A stretch of 64,000 nucleotides of DNA from Verrucomicrobiia bacterium (GTDB lineage Bacteria; Verrucomicrobiota; Verrucomicrobiia; Verrucomicrobiales; DEV007), in the NCBI GenBank assembly GCA_030425385.1, contig JAUIAH010000003.1, forward strand, positions 124,001 to 188,000. The letters run 5' to 3'. Below the pieces are notes generated by a model. The model saw only the letters and a program-made list of their open reading frames with translations. It did no database searches and was not told the DNA's origin. Both the position numbers and the translations under genes were made by a program. This document shows, piece after piece, positions 23,814-28,717 of this stretch (position 1 is the first letter of the stretch; each line of letters starts with the position of its first letter).

Positions 23814-25283
23814 ATGATCCGTCATTTCATTCTGCCCCTCATTCTCGTGTGGACGGCCGCTTCGGTCGTTCATGCGCAGGTCACAGAGGCGGATGTGGTC
23901 ATCCCGGAAATGGGTCAGACGACGAGTGCCAGCAAGCAGTTTCGCATCATTGGGGGGGATCGACAGATCCGGAATGCCTTCGCGTCCTATGCGGAGCGAG
24001 TGAAGAACCGTTTCCTCCAGGCCCTGCAAAAGGACAAAGAGGATGCGTGGCACCATCGCATTCTCATCCGCGTGGCGGGGCGCTTGACGGATCCCTCTCC
24101 TGAGGAGTCGATCGATTGGAAAGTGAGTCAGTTTGGGAATCACTTCACGCTTGAGATTCGGGTGACCTTGAGCGCGGCGTTTGATCGCGAGACGATGACG
24201 GCCGCGCTCTTGCACATGCTGATGTTCGAGATGGCGTTGCGTGATGTGGAGGTGGCCGTGAATGATCAACTGATCCCCCGATGGCTGCGAGTGGGATTGC
24301 CAGGTGCCTTGAAACGGCGGGAAGCGGGGCGCCCGAGCGGATTCTTCAAGACGATGTTCGAGCTGAATCTGATCACGCCAGCAGACGAGATTCTCACGGC
24401 GACCAAGGATGACGTGGATGCGGTGTCGCGCTCTGTTTATGAGGCCTCTGCGAGTGGCTTTGTCCTCATGCTCCTGGACCAGCAGGGAGGCCCCGCCAAG
24501 TTTGCGAAGCTGCTTCATGGGCATGGGGGAAGCCATGGCGTGCGGGGGCACGACCTCCTGGCGCGGTATTTCCCGGCCTTGCGTGGGACCAAAGAGCGGC
24601 TGGAGAAGACCTGGATCCTCTATTGTTCGAAATTAGCGGCTCCACAGGCGATGGAATTTCTCAATCCAGAAGCGACCGAGCGCGCCTTGGCGGAAGCGCT
24701 GCAGGTGTCCTTCCTGGAATTTGTCCCGGAAACGGCACCCGAGCGGTCCCCGAAGCCGATCCGATTTCTTGGCAATCTGTGGTCGCGAGGGAAGGCGGAG
24801 AAAGACAACGAGAAGGGAGATGAGGGATCGGCCCCTGAGGATGCAGGGGCAGGAGAGGGGGAGCGGCCCACCCAGGCGTTTGAAGGGACGTTGGCTGACT
24901 TTGAGCGCTTTCTTGGGAGGGCGGACCGCGAGGAGATTCTGATCCCGGTTCGCGATCGATTGCTGCATCTGAACGTGCGCTCATTTCCCCTCTATCGCCC
25001 CCTGGTGCAAGATTATCAGGAGGTGGTCGCGAAGCTCCTCGCTGGTCGGCCCGAAGGGGTGGCGAAGCACTTGGAGGCACTCGCGGAGGAGCGGGGGCGC
25101 ATGACGCAGCTGCTGGACGCGATCCGAATCTTCATGGATGAGCATGAGAGACGCCCTCGGGACACGAAGACGGGCGTCTTCGACAACTATCTCCGTCAGG
25201 TAAGGGAGATCGAACGTGGGTCGCGGGCCAGTCAGGATCCCATTTCTAAATACATGGATGAGGTGGAGAACGCGTTGGAATAG
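23814..25283 (+). CDS. Secreted protein resembling a catalytically dead MA-clan peptidase
   Basis: This 489-residue protein has a signal peptide ending in VVHAQ. The stretch TAALLHMLMFEMALRDV, then IPRWLRVGLPGALKRRE, then a helical region ending MLLDQQGGPAKFAKLLHGHG, follows the layout of peptidase-MA-like gluzincins, whose corresponding parts read HELTHV and LPRWLSEGLAEY. The zinc-binding HExxH is missing (LHMLMFEM). An acidic low-complexity linker (about 330-355) separates a C-terminal helical domain. It is followed within 7 bp by a small membrane protein and a Minf_1886-family gene, likely an operon. Function unknown. Confidence 0.7.
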   Translation: MIRHFILPLILVWTAASVVHAQVTEADVVIPEMGQTTSASKQFRIIGGDRQIRNAFASYAERVKNRFLQALQKDKEDAWHHRILIRVAGRLTDPSPEESIDWKVSQFGNHFTLEIRVTLSAAFDRETMTAALLHMLMFEMALRDVEVAVNDQLIPRWLRVGLPGALKRREAGRPSGFFKTMFELNLITPADEILTATKDDVDAVSRSVYEASASGFVLMLLDQQGGPAKFAKLLHGHGGSHGVRGHDLLARYFPALRGTKERLEKTWILYCSKLAAPQAMEFLNPEATERALAEALQVSFLEFVPETAPERSPKPIRFLGNLWSRGKAEKDNEKGDEGSAPEDAGAGEGERPTQAFEGTLADFERFLGRADREEILIPVRDRLLHLNVRSFPLYRPLVQDYQEVVAKLLAGRPEGVAKHLEALAEERGRMTQLLDAIRIFMDEHERRPRDTKTGVFDNYLRQVREIERGSRASQDPISKYMDEVENALE

Positions 25284-25289
25284 TCCGAG

Positions 25290-25478
25290 ATGAGTGCCAA
25301 ACGCCCGCCTAAAACGAGTCGTTTGACCTTGCAGGAGCACGCCCTGCTGTTACTGCTTCTTGGCATCCTCGTGCTTGGATCGTTCGTGCGTTACAAGCGC
25401 TACGAAGCCGAACCTGCACCGACGACTACCACTCCAAACACACCATTTCCTGAGTCAGCAACCGACTCCCTTCCCTGA
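25290..25478 (+). CDS. Small single-pass membrane protein
   Basis: This 62-residue protein has a basic N-terminus, one transmembrane helix (ALLLLLLGILVLGSFV, about residues 18-34) and a Thr/Pro-rich tail. Its stop codon overlaps the start of the next gene (TGATG), and it begins 6 bp after the previous stop, so it appears to be a real member of a three-gene operon. No function is recognised. Confidence 0.65.
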   Translation: MSAKRPPKTSRLTLQEHALLLLLLGILVLGSFVRYKRYEAEPAPTTTTPNTPFPESATDSLP

Positions 25479-25885
25479 TGGCGAAGCAATTAGATTTCGA
25501 TGAAGCCGTGGGCCAGTTGGTCGAACGGGATCCACGATATCCGTTAGGTGCCTACCATTTCATGCGTGACGCGCTTGATGCCACCCTGCGCCAAGTGCGT
25601 CAACCGGCGGATGCATCCGAGCAGCGTCACGTTTCAGGGAAGGAACTTGCCGATGGGATCCGCACCTACGCGCTGAAAGAGTTTGGCCCCATGGTGATGA
25701 CGGTCTTTGAAGAGTGGAACATCCGTTCCTGCGCCGACTTTGGTGAAATCGTCTTCAATCTCATCGAGGCACGGGTCTTTGGGAAGACCGAGGACGATCG
25801 AAAGGAAGATTTCGAAGGGCATTACGACTTCCAAGATGCCTTCGTGAAGCCTTTCCTTCCCAAGGTGGCGCCTGGAAACGCCTAG
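25478..25885 (+). CDS. Minf_1886 family protein (verrucomicrobial/planctomycete conserved protein)
   Basis: This 135-residue soluble protein matches the family known from Methylacidiphilum and planctomycetes: YPLGAYHFMRDALDATL, HVSGKELADGIRTYALKEFGPM, and EEWNIRSCADFGEIVFNLIEA, with a C-terminal acidic DFQDAFVKPF. The function of the family is not known. The gene is coupled to the small membrane protein before it. Its presence is one of the better taxonomic clues in the window. Its end overlaps the SelW-like gene on the other strand by 4 bp. Confidence 0.8.
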   Translation: MAKQLDFDEAVGQLVERDPRYPLGAYHFMRDALDATLRQVRQPADASEQRHVSGKELADGIRTYALKEFGPMVMTVFEEWNIRSCADFGEIVFNLIEARVFGKTEDDRKEDFEGHYDFQDAFVKPFLPKVAPGNA

Positions 25886-26106
25886 TTGCGCGATTGGAGG
25901 ATCTGGATCACCTCACCTCGCTCAGGGAAGCGACCGAGGTCGTGTTTGCAGTAGATCCGCTCGCCATCCACGGTCACATCGAAGATGCCGCCGCCGCCAG
26001 CGATCAATTCGGCATCCACTCCCGTCGCCGCTTTCAAGTCAGCTGCTAAACTAGCAGCCTTCGGTTCATAATTTCACTGCGCGCAATACTCGATCTGAAT
26101 CTTCAT
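25882..26106 (-). CDS. SelW/Rdx-family protein with in-frame TGA, probable selenoprotein
   Basis: Reading from the ATG at 26104-26106 gives MKIQIEYCAQ, then TGA (26074-26076, codon 11), then NYEPKAASLAADLKAATG, an AGGGGIFDV turn and GERIYCKHDLGRFPERG, ending at TAG 25882-25884: 74 residues if the TGA is read. The Rdx (SelW/SelT/SelH) thioredoxin-fold family has CxxC or CxxU exactly at this place, so the TGA replaces the second redox cysteine. Both sides of the TGA keep family sequence, arguing for selenocysteine rather than decay. A hairpin suited to a bacterial SECIS follows. The family is thought to act in thiol redox reactions. A TGC-to-TGA nonsense mutation is the alternative. Confidence 0.8.
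26042..26058 (-). promoter_or_regulatory. Putative bacterial SECIS hairpin
   Basis: On the minus strand, 15 nt after the TGA, GCTGCTA-GTT-TAGCAGC forms a perfect 7-bp stem with a 3-nt loop, extendable by one G-U pair. The loop's first base is G and lies 23 nt after the TGA. This agrees with the general bacterial SECIS description (apical loop roughly 16-37 nt from the UGA, G at one of the first two loop positions). The stem forces the rarer codons AGT and TTA. Confidence 0.7.
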
Positions 26107-26200: not shown

Positions 26201-28717
26201 ATGGCTAGCAAAGACGGGAAACTCACCCCCATGATGCAACAGTACCAGGGCCTGCGAAAGAGCCTGCCCGAGGATGTGCTTCTCTTATACCGTCTGGGCG
26301 ACTTCTATGAACTCTTCTTCGACGATGCTAAGGAAGCGGCAGGGATCCTCAACGTGGCGCTGACCAAACGCAACGGGATGCCCATGTGCGGCGTGCCCCA
26401 TCACTCGGCAGAAGGCTACATTGGCAAACTGATCCAGGCAGGGAAACGCGTCGCCATCGCGGAACAAACGAGCGATCCCCAGCCAGGTAAGATTGTAGAA
26501 CGGGCCATCAGCCAAGTGATCAGCGCGGGGACGATCAGCGATCTGAATCTGTTAGAAGCGACCCAGTCAAATTATCTCGCGGGCGTCTATCAAGCCAAGA
26601 AAGTGTCAGGATTGGCTTACATCGATCTCAGCACGGGAGATTTCCGGGTCACGGAGTTCACTGATCGACAGGCGTTGCGAGACGAAGTGCATCGTATCTC
26701 GCCTTCCGAACTGCTCTTCAGTGATGAACAGGAGAAGCTCTTTGGGGATCTGCCAGGGGGTGCAGCCTATGACGGTTACGCATTTCTCTTTGATCAGGCG
26801 GTCCATCAGTTGAAAGAGCACTTCAAGGTGCATTCGTTAGATGGATTTGGTTGTGGGACACACACTGCGGCGGTGAGTGCGGCGGGTGCTCTCATGCACT
26901 ATTTGCAACAAGTCCTTCGGCGACAGTTGGATCACATTCTTTCCCTGCAACCATACCACACAGATGCGGGGGTGCTCATCGACATCGCCAGTCAGGTGAA
27001 TCTGGAGCTGGTCTCCAGCCGCGCGGGCAAGCAGCACACGCTCTTGCATGCTCTTGATGAAACGCGCACACCGATGGGAGCTCGTAAGTTGCGTGATTGG
27101 ATGCTGCACCCGCTGCGAAATTTGGATGCCTTGCACAAACGTCAGGGAACCGTCGCGACCTTCTTGCAGCAGCCGTTCGTCCTCTCGCAGTTGCAGGAAG
27201 GGCTGAAGGGTATCCGTGATGTGGAGCGTACGCTTGGGCGCTTGAGTCAAGGCACGGGTAATGGTCGTGATCTGCGTCACTTGTTAGGGGCGTTACAGTG
27301 CCTTCCTGACTTGCGTGGTCACCTCCAAGCCTTGCCTTCCATCGAGGAAGCGAGTTTGTTAGGAGAGTGGTTGGAGCGTTTGCCAGAGTTTCCTGACCTT
27401 TGTGAGCGGCTTGAGAAAGCGCTCGTCGAGGAGCCGCCCGTTTCCATCAAGGAAGGTGGCATCTTTCGTGATGGTTACTCCGCGGACCTCGATGAGATTC
27501 GGAAAGCGTCGACTGAGGGGAAGCAATGGATTGCCGATTTGCAAACACAGGAGATTGATCGCACCGGGATCAAGTCGCTCAAGGTGCGTCACAACGCTGT
27601 CTTTGGCTATTTCATCGAAGTGACGAAAGCAAATCTGGCACAAGTGCCAGAAGATTACCATCGCAAGCAGACAACAGCCAATGCCGAGCGATTCATCACG
27701 CCAGGACTGAAGGAGATGGAGAACAAGATCTTGGGGGCGGATGAGCGCATGCGCGCCTTTGAGCACGAGGAATTTCTTGCTTTGCGAGGTGAGGTGTTAG
27801 AGCAGCTGCGGCTTCTGCAAGTGGTGGCAGATGCTCTAGCAGAAATTGATGTCATCGCTGGGTTGGCCGAGAAGGCGCGGCTCTACAACTATTGCCGGCC
27901 GGTTCTCAATGAATCCAAGAACCTTTACCTGAAAGAAGGACGGCATCCTGTGCTGGATCAGCAATTGACGGACGAAAAGTTTGTTCCTAACGACACCACT
28001 CTGGATCACGAAGCCAACCGACTGCTCCTCATCACGGGCCCTAACATGGCTGGAAAGTCGACTTATATCAGGCAAGTTGCGTTGCTTGTGCTCATGGCGC
28101 AGATGGGCAGCTTCATCCCAGCGACGCAGGCGGAGATCGGTCTCGTCGATCGCATCTTCACCCGTGTCGGGGCCAATGATGATTTGGCGAGGGGGCAATC
28201 AACCTTCATGGTCGAGATGAATGAGACGGCGAGCATCATCAACAATGCGACGGATCGTAGTCTGATTGTGTTAGACGAAATTGGGCGAGGCACGTCGACC
28301 TTTGACGGCTTGTCGATTGCCTGGAGCGTGGCCGAGCATGTGAATGATCACATTCAAGCGCGGACACTCTTTGCCACTCATTATCATGAACTCACGGCGC
28401 TGGCGCAAAGTCGACCGAGCGTGCAGAACTACAACGTTGCCGTGCGTGAGTGGAATGAGGAGATCATCTTCCTGAGAAAGATCGTTCCCGGCGCTGCGGA
28501 TCGCAGCTATGGTATTCAGGTGGCGCGTCTCGCCGGGTTACCCAAAGAAATCATCGAACGGGCGCAGGCCATCCTGGATCATTTGGAGACCAGCAATCGC
28601 GCTCAAGGCGAGGAGGGGGCGCCGCCCGTGAAGAAGCGCGCCCGTCCCACGCGCGCCAAGGAGAAGGGCGACGTGCAGCCGGAAAGTTCGTCTCCGCAAA
28701 TGACCTTGTTTACCTAG
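26201..28717 (+). CDS. mutS: DNA mismatch repair protein MutS
   Basis: This protein recognises base mismatches and small loops and starts methyl-independent or strand-directed repair with MutL. The N-terminal mismatch-binding domain has the F-x-E motif in GDFYELFFDDA (near residue 35). Connector, core and clamp domains follow (DETRTPMGARKLRDWMLHPL, RHNAVFGYFIEV). The C-terminal ATPase has Walker A GPNMAGKST (near 614), then VGANDDLARGQSTFMVEMNE, LDEIGRGTSTFDG and ATHYHEL. The 838 residues are normal for MutS1. A basic tail (KKRARPTRAKEK) precedes the C-terminal QMTLF beta-clamp-type motif. Confidence 0.98.
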   Translation: MASKDGKLTPMMQQYQGLRKSLPEDVLLLYRLGDFYELFFDDAKEAAGILNVALTKRNGMPMCGVPHHSAEGYIGKLIQAGKRVAIAEQTSDPQPGKIVERAISQVISAGTISDLNLLEATQSNYLAGVYQAKKVSGLAYIDLSTGDFRVTEFTDRQALRDEVHRISPSELLFSDEQEKLFGDLPGGAAYDGYAFLFDQAVHQLKEHFKVHSLDGFGCGTHTAAVSAAGALMHYLQQVLRRQLDHILSLQPYHTDAGVLIDIASQVNLELVSSRAGKQHTLLHALDETRTPMGARKLRDWMLHPLRNLDALHKRQGTVATFLQQPFVLSQLQEGLKGIRDVERTLGRLSQGTGNGRDLRHLLGALQCLPDLRGHLQALPSIEEASLLGEWLERLPEFPDLCERLEKALVEEPPVSIKEGGIFRDGYSADLDEIRKASTEGKQWIADLQTQEIDRTGIKSLKVRHNAVFGYFIEVTKANLAQVPEDYHRKQTTANAERFITPGLKEMENKILGADERMRAFEHEEFLALRGEVLEQLRLLQVVADALAEIDVIAGLAEKARLYNYCRPVLNESKNLYLKEGRHPVLDQQLTDEKFVPNDTTLDHEANRLLLITGPNMAGKSTYIRQVALLVLMAQMGSFIPATQAEIGLVDRIFTRVGANDDLARGQSTFMVEMNETASIINNATDRSLIVLDEIGRGTSTFDGLSIAWSVAEHVNDHIQARTLFATHYHELTALAQSRPSVQNYNVAVREWNEEIIFLRKIVPGAADRSYGIQVARLAGLPKEIIERAQAILDHLETSNRAQGEEGAPPVKKRARPTRAKEKGDVQPESSSPQMTLFT

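Follow-up and report, generated by a model that had tools for sequence, protein, structure and literature searches.

Introduction

SelW-like proteins with a CxxU motif belong to the most common selenoproteins of bacteria (PMC2398784), and the SELENOW-like family is listed with this motif in Table 2 of PMC2398784, in Table 1 of PMC9312934 and in PMC13188914. The reviews of 2022 (PMC9312934) and 2026 (PMC13188914, with one Sec) both give SELENOW-like proteins as CxxU and assign UxxU to other families; a UxxU form of SELENOW-like appears in neither, although it may have been described elsewhere. For the bacterial SECIS (bSECIS) element, the model of PMC13188914 specifies a loop of 3-9 nt on a stem of 4-16 bp, with a G in the first two loop positions and the loop lying 16-37 nt from the UGA.

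The gene described here lies in a 64,000-nt stretch of a Verrucomicrobiales genome, referred to in its entirety as the window. As judged from its sequence, it is a genuine though unremarkable SELENOW-like CxxU selenoprotein gene of a known family. It is like the other members of the SELENOW-like family (PF10262) in length, fold family, N-terminal CxxU and single Sec, as well as in having a bSECIS just past the UGA and in occurring together with the Sec machinery, and it differs from them in nothing of substance; residue 53 is Cys, in place of the Ser of most relatives.

Results and Discussion

A SelW-like gene with a single in-frame TGA

The SelW-like (Rdx family) gene, referred to here as selW, occupies positions 25882..26106 on the minus strand, running from an ATG at 26106 to a TAG at 25884-25882. 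Its 75 codons include a single TGA at 26076-26074, and the predicted product has 74 residues with Sec at residue 11. The read-through protein begins MKIQIEYCAQUNYEPKAASLAADL..., in which CAQU corresponds to residues 8-11: codon 8 (26083..26085, minus strand) specifies the first residue of the CxxU motif, which is Cys in CxxU homologues and presumably has the resolving role, and the TGA of codon 11 (26074..26076, minus strand) supplies the second, almost certainly read as selenocysteine. A first-pass annotation, made from the letters alone, had described a 75-codon frame with one TGA at codon 11 giving YCAQ-U-NYEP, and it is correct in all of these details. Because an in-frame TAA lies just upstream, the ATG at 26106 is the only ordinary start. 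The Cys at residue 53 (within IYCKH; 25945-25965, minus strand) is shared only with the congener L028, and nearly all relatives have Ser there.

Both neighbours of selW are on the plus strand. The convergent gene (25478..25885) encodes a Minf_1886 family protein (TIGR04138, Plancto_Ver_chp, E 1e-45) and overlaps the selW stop by 4 bases, and the divergent neighbour (26201..28717) is mutS (NF003810, E 5e-304), which also adjoins selW in both of the other selW-bearing members of the genus (L025 and L028; 74-77% identity by tblastn). We note that a 489-residue frame at 23814-25283, plus strand, has no NCBIfam match.

The likeness to SelW/Rdx proteins that the first-pass annotation had recognized is borne out by family models, as the read-through protein scores above the gathering cut-off of PF10262 (Rdx; E 6.2e-17, 62 bits, cut-off 22.6) and above that of TIGR02174 (CXXU_selWTH; E 1.6e-13, 50.7 bits, cut-off 34.2), and it carries CxxU near its N terminus, where Rdx members have CxxC or CxxU. 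The best-scoring NCBI model is NF041051 (SelTWH_Campy, E 1.9e-24); the 85.7 bits obtained fall just below its curated cut-off of 88, so that this narrow equivalog label is not applied. Solved relatives identified by sequence include 3dex, 2fa8, 2ojl, 2oka, 2obk, 2p0g and human C17orf37 (2ljk), with a best E of 2.5e-8; these have longer chains than the selW product and the likeness is a family-level sequence match, from which we infer a thioredoxin-like fold.

Conservation of the TGA and of the protein beyond it

Codon 11 is TGA in 63 of 65 non-redundant homologues and TGC in two (L079 and L097), and Rdx members with CxxC are found in the phylum. A scan of contigs, in which codon 11 formed no part of the search patterns, recovered 59 selW-related loci, among them loci of Pseudomonadota, Thermodesulfobacteriota, Myxococcota, Acidobacteriota, Planctomycetota, Gemmatimonadota, Nitrospirota, Chloroflexota, Actinomycetota and Zixiibacteriota. 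The TGA is kept at codon 11 by relatives from ten phyla or more, and some relatives have Cys. The comparison of homologues at this codon that the first-pass annotation had proposed accordingly yields either TGA or Cys. L104 (genome G355, of the same order as the genome of the window) and L048 (Akkermansiaceae, JALZVD010000336.1) encode SelW proteins identical to each other, which assigns the window to Verrucomicrobiales; the Minf_1886 family match of the gene beside selW is consistent with this assignment.

Within the genus, changes 3' of the TGA number 11/8/28 and 8/8/27 at codon positions 1/2/3, such that third positions account for 28 of 47 and 27 of 43. By this measure the selW sequence beyond the TGA is evolving under protein-level selection, and where degraded sequence around the TGA in relatives had been named as a sign of a pseudogene or sequencing error, protein-like evolution past the TGA is seen instead.

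Selenocysteine machinery and co-occurrence with selA

The genome containing the window (8.0 Mb in 74 contigs, 95.5% complete) was searched with family models, and all four of the selA, selB, selC and selD genes whose presence the first-pass annotation had suggested checking are there: selA at 491 bits (cut-off 268), selB at 283 bits (cut-off 242), selD at 361 bits (cut-off 125), and a tRNA-Sec at 65 bits, over its cut-off and confirmed by ARAGORN with anticodon TCA. The selD gene (L018, minus strand of 1501-2424) itself contains an in-frame TGA within TCGUAAK, the usual Sec position of SelD, and the genome thus has at least one further selenoprotein gene. TGA terminates 15 of the 36 long frames in the window, and there is therefore no genome-wide reassignment of UGA.

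Among 57 related genomes, including that of the window, 26 have selA and 19 have an Rdx match, each with at least one in-frame TGA. Every one of the 19 Rdx genomes is among the 26 with selA, and Rdx is absent from all 31 that lack selA (P ~1e-9, a value that ignores shared ancestry). The match in G044, counted among the 19, is weak and interrupted by several other stops, such that the Rdx gene there may not be intact, and a search of the G001 genome, which belongs to the same genus and has selA, found no Rdx gene. In the wider order nearly all Rdx matches have one or two TGAs, with three genomes also having a Cys copy; in the remainder of the phylum Cys-type Rdx copies prevail.

The hairpin downstream of the UGA

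A putative bSECIS hairpin is located at 26041..26059 on the minus strand. Its stem, GCTGCTA-GTT-TAGCAGC (26058-26042), starts 15 nt past the TGA and comprises seven Watson-Crick pairs, extended to 8 bp by a flanking G-U, with a GUU loop whose G is at +23 from the UGA; all of these features fall within the bSECIS model of PMC13188914. The perfect 7-bp stem, GTT loop and 23-nt distance had already been seen in the first-pass annotation, and the SECIS-like spacing that it proposed is now joined by covariation across relatives.

Considered alone, the window gene gives a modest signal. A 37-nt stretch containing the hairpin folds at -10.6 kcal/mol (z -2.4), with 5 of 200 dinucleotide shuffles folding equally well, and a 60-nt fold of the region favours a different pairing over the SECIS stem. 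Synonymous recodings reach the same stem in 5-10% of cases (P 0.05-0.10); the codons for AASLAA are prone to pair in any case (some 5.2 of the 7 pairs are expected after recoding), and for that reason the hairpin of the window gene is not significant by itself.

The signal emerges when the family is pooled. Counting pairs in the fixed stem and recoding synonymously at matched third-position GC, 330 of 364 stem cells are paired in 52 UGA genes versus 240 +/- 6 in recoded sequences, the highest count among 1000 recodings being 259; Acidimicrobiia-type genes and L078 were left out of this count as they do not fit the fixed register. The wobble pair +20/+32 occurs as all six standard types (31 CG, 10 TA, 5 GT, 3 TG, 3 GC and 1 AT), and a register-free stem measure gives z 9.6 for 69 UGA genes versus z 1.5 for 24 Cys-type genes. 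A minimum-free-energy version of the recoding test is weak (mean z -0.9) because it counts any structure, and the fixed-stem pair count is the decisive one. On this pattern of covariation we identify the hairpin downstream of UGA-11 as a bacterial SECIS element by prediction, with its pairing kept beyond the demands of the protein.

Interpretation of UGA-11

We are almost certain that the window gene is a functional SELENOW-like selenoprotein gene with Sec at UGA-11. The insertion of selenocysteine proposed in the first-pass annotation is supported by the family assignment, the machinery, the hairpin and the conserved UGA/Cys site. A ribosome arriving at UGA-11 would meet the hairpin, 15 nt further on and in complex with SelB, GTP and Sec-tRNA(Sec), and the SelB-bound hairpin would direct selenocysteine insertion at this codon and not termination. 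The product would be a 74-residue thioredoxin-fold Rdx protein, in which Cys8-x-x-Sec11 could form a selenenylsulfide and may take part in thiol-based redox chemistry.

Other explanations can be weighed against these data. That the hairpin is a mere by-product of near-palindromic AASLAA codons, and does not act as a SECIS, is very improbable: the default pairing of these codons in the window gene is what such an origin would predict, and yet the wobble covariation and excess of pairs extend across the family, and the Cys-type relatives lack both the motif and a clear excess of stem. It is slightly less probable still that this was once a Cys-type Rdx gene, in which the TGA either is a genuine stop or comes from a miscalled base. 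Although a single base separates TGA from TGC or TGT, and Cys-type Rdx genes do occur in the phylum, the same TGA is present in dozens of independent assemblies, the sequence past it is under protein-level selection, the hairpin covaries, and Rdx is found among the 57 nearest relatives only alongside selA.

The least probable of these readings, to which we attach next to no weight, is that UGA is decoded as another amino acid, through genome-wide reassignment or near-cognate readthrough. The selW frame would be equally open under such a code, but TGA closes many of the long frames in the window, codon 11 is the redox Cys/Sec site, and tRNA-Sec, SelA, SelB and SelD are all present. Conservation, selection, covariation, TGA stops and Sec machinery together led us to reject a pseudogene, a base-call error and a reassigned code. 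As a selenoprotein gene, selW adds to those likely to be overlooked or shortened by standard gene finders, and with it the use of Sec is firmly placed in its Verrucomicrobiales genus.

Variant SelW genes in relatives

The window gene itself is CxxU, and 14 of 387 genomes of Verrucomicrobiales, in two families, have a SelW-like gene with two TGAs. Reading one locus per genome (L021, L022, L023, L024, L026, L027, L035, L105, L106, L107, L108, L110, L148 and L149), all 14 are UxxU, mostly YUGMUNY, with YUGQUNY, YUGVUNY and YUSKUNY once each. The UGAs are at both redox positions, 9 nt apart, and are followed by a single SECIS-type stem in the same place. A tree requires four changes and suggests several origins of UxxU, although a single clade is not rejected by an AU test (p 0.19). 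Probably, one SECIS recodes two UGAs in these genes, making a diselenide possible in a variant outside the 2022 and 2026 review lists, and the window gene represents the CxxU state in a lineage where Cys has been converted to Sec, perhaps more than once. The UxxU genes and their close CxxU sisters offer a small natural system for learning how a single SECIS can act on two neighbouring UGAs, and for asking what a SelW-type protein gains from a diselenide.

A different departure is seen in the Acidimicrobiia-type SelW genes (L083, L084, L089, L090, L092-L095, L098 and L099), in which the hairpin lies in another register and several loops are CGTGA, suggesting a lineage-specific SECIS shape.
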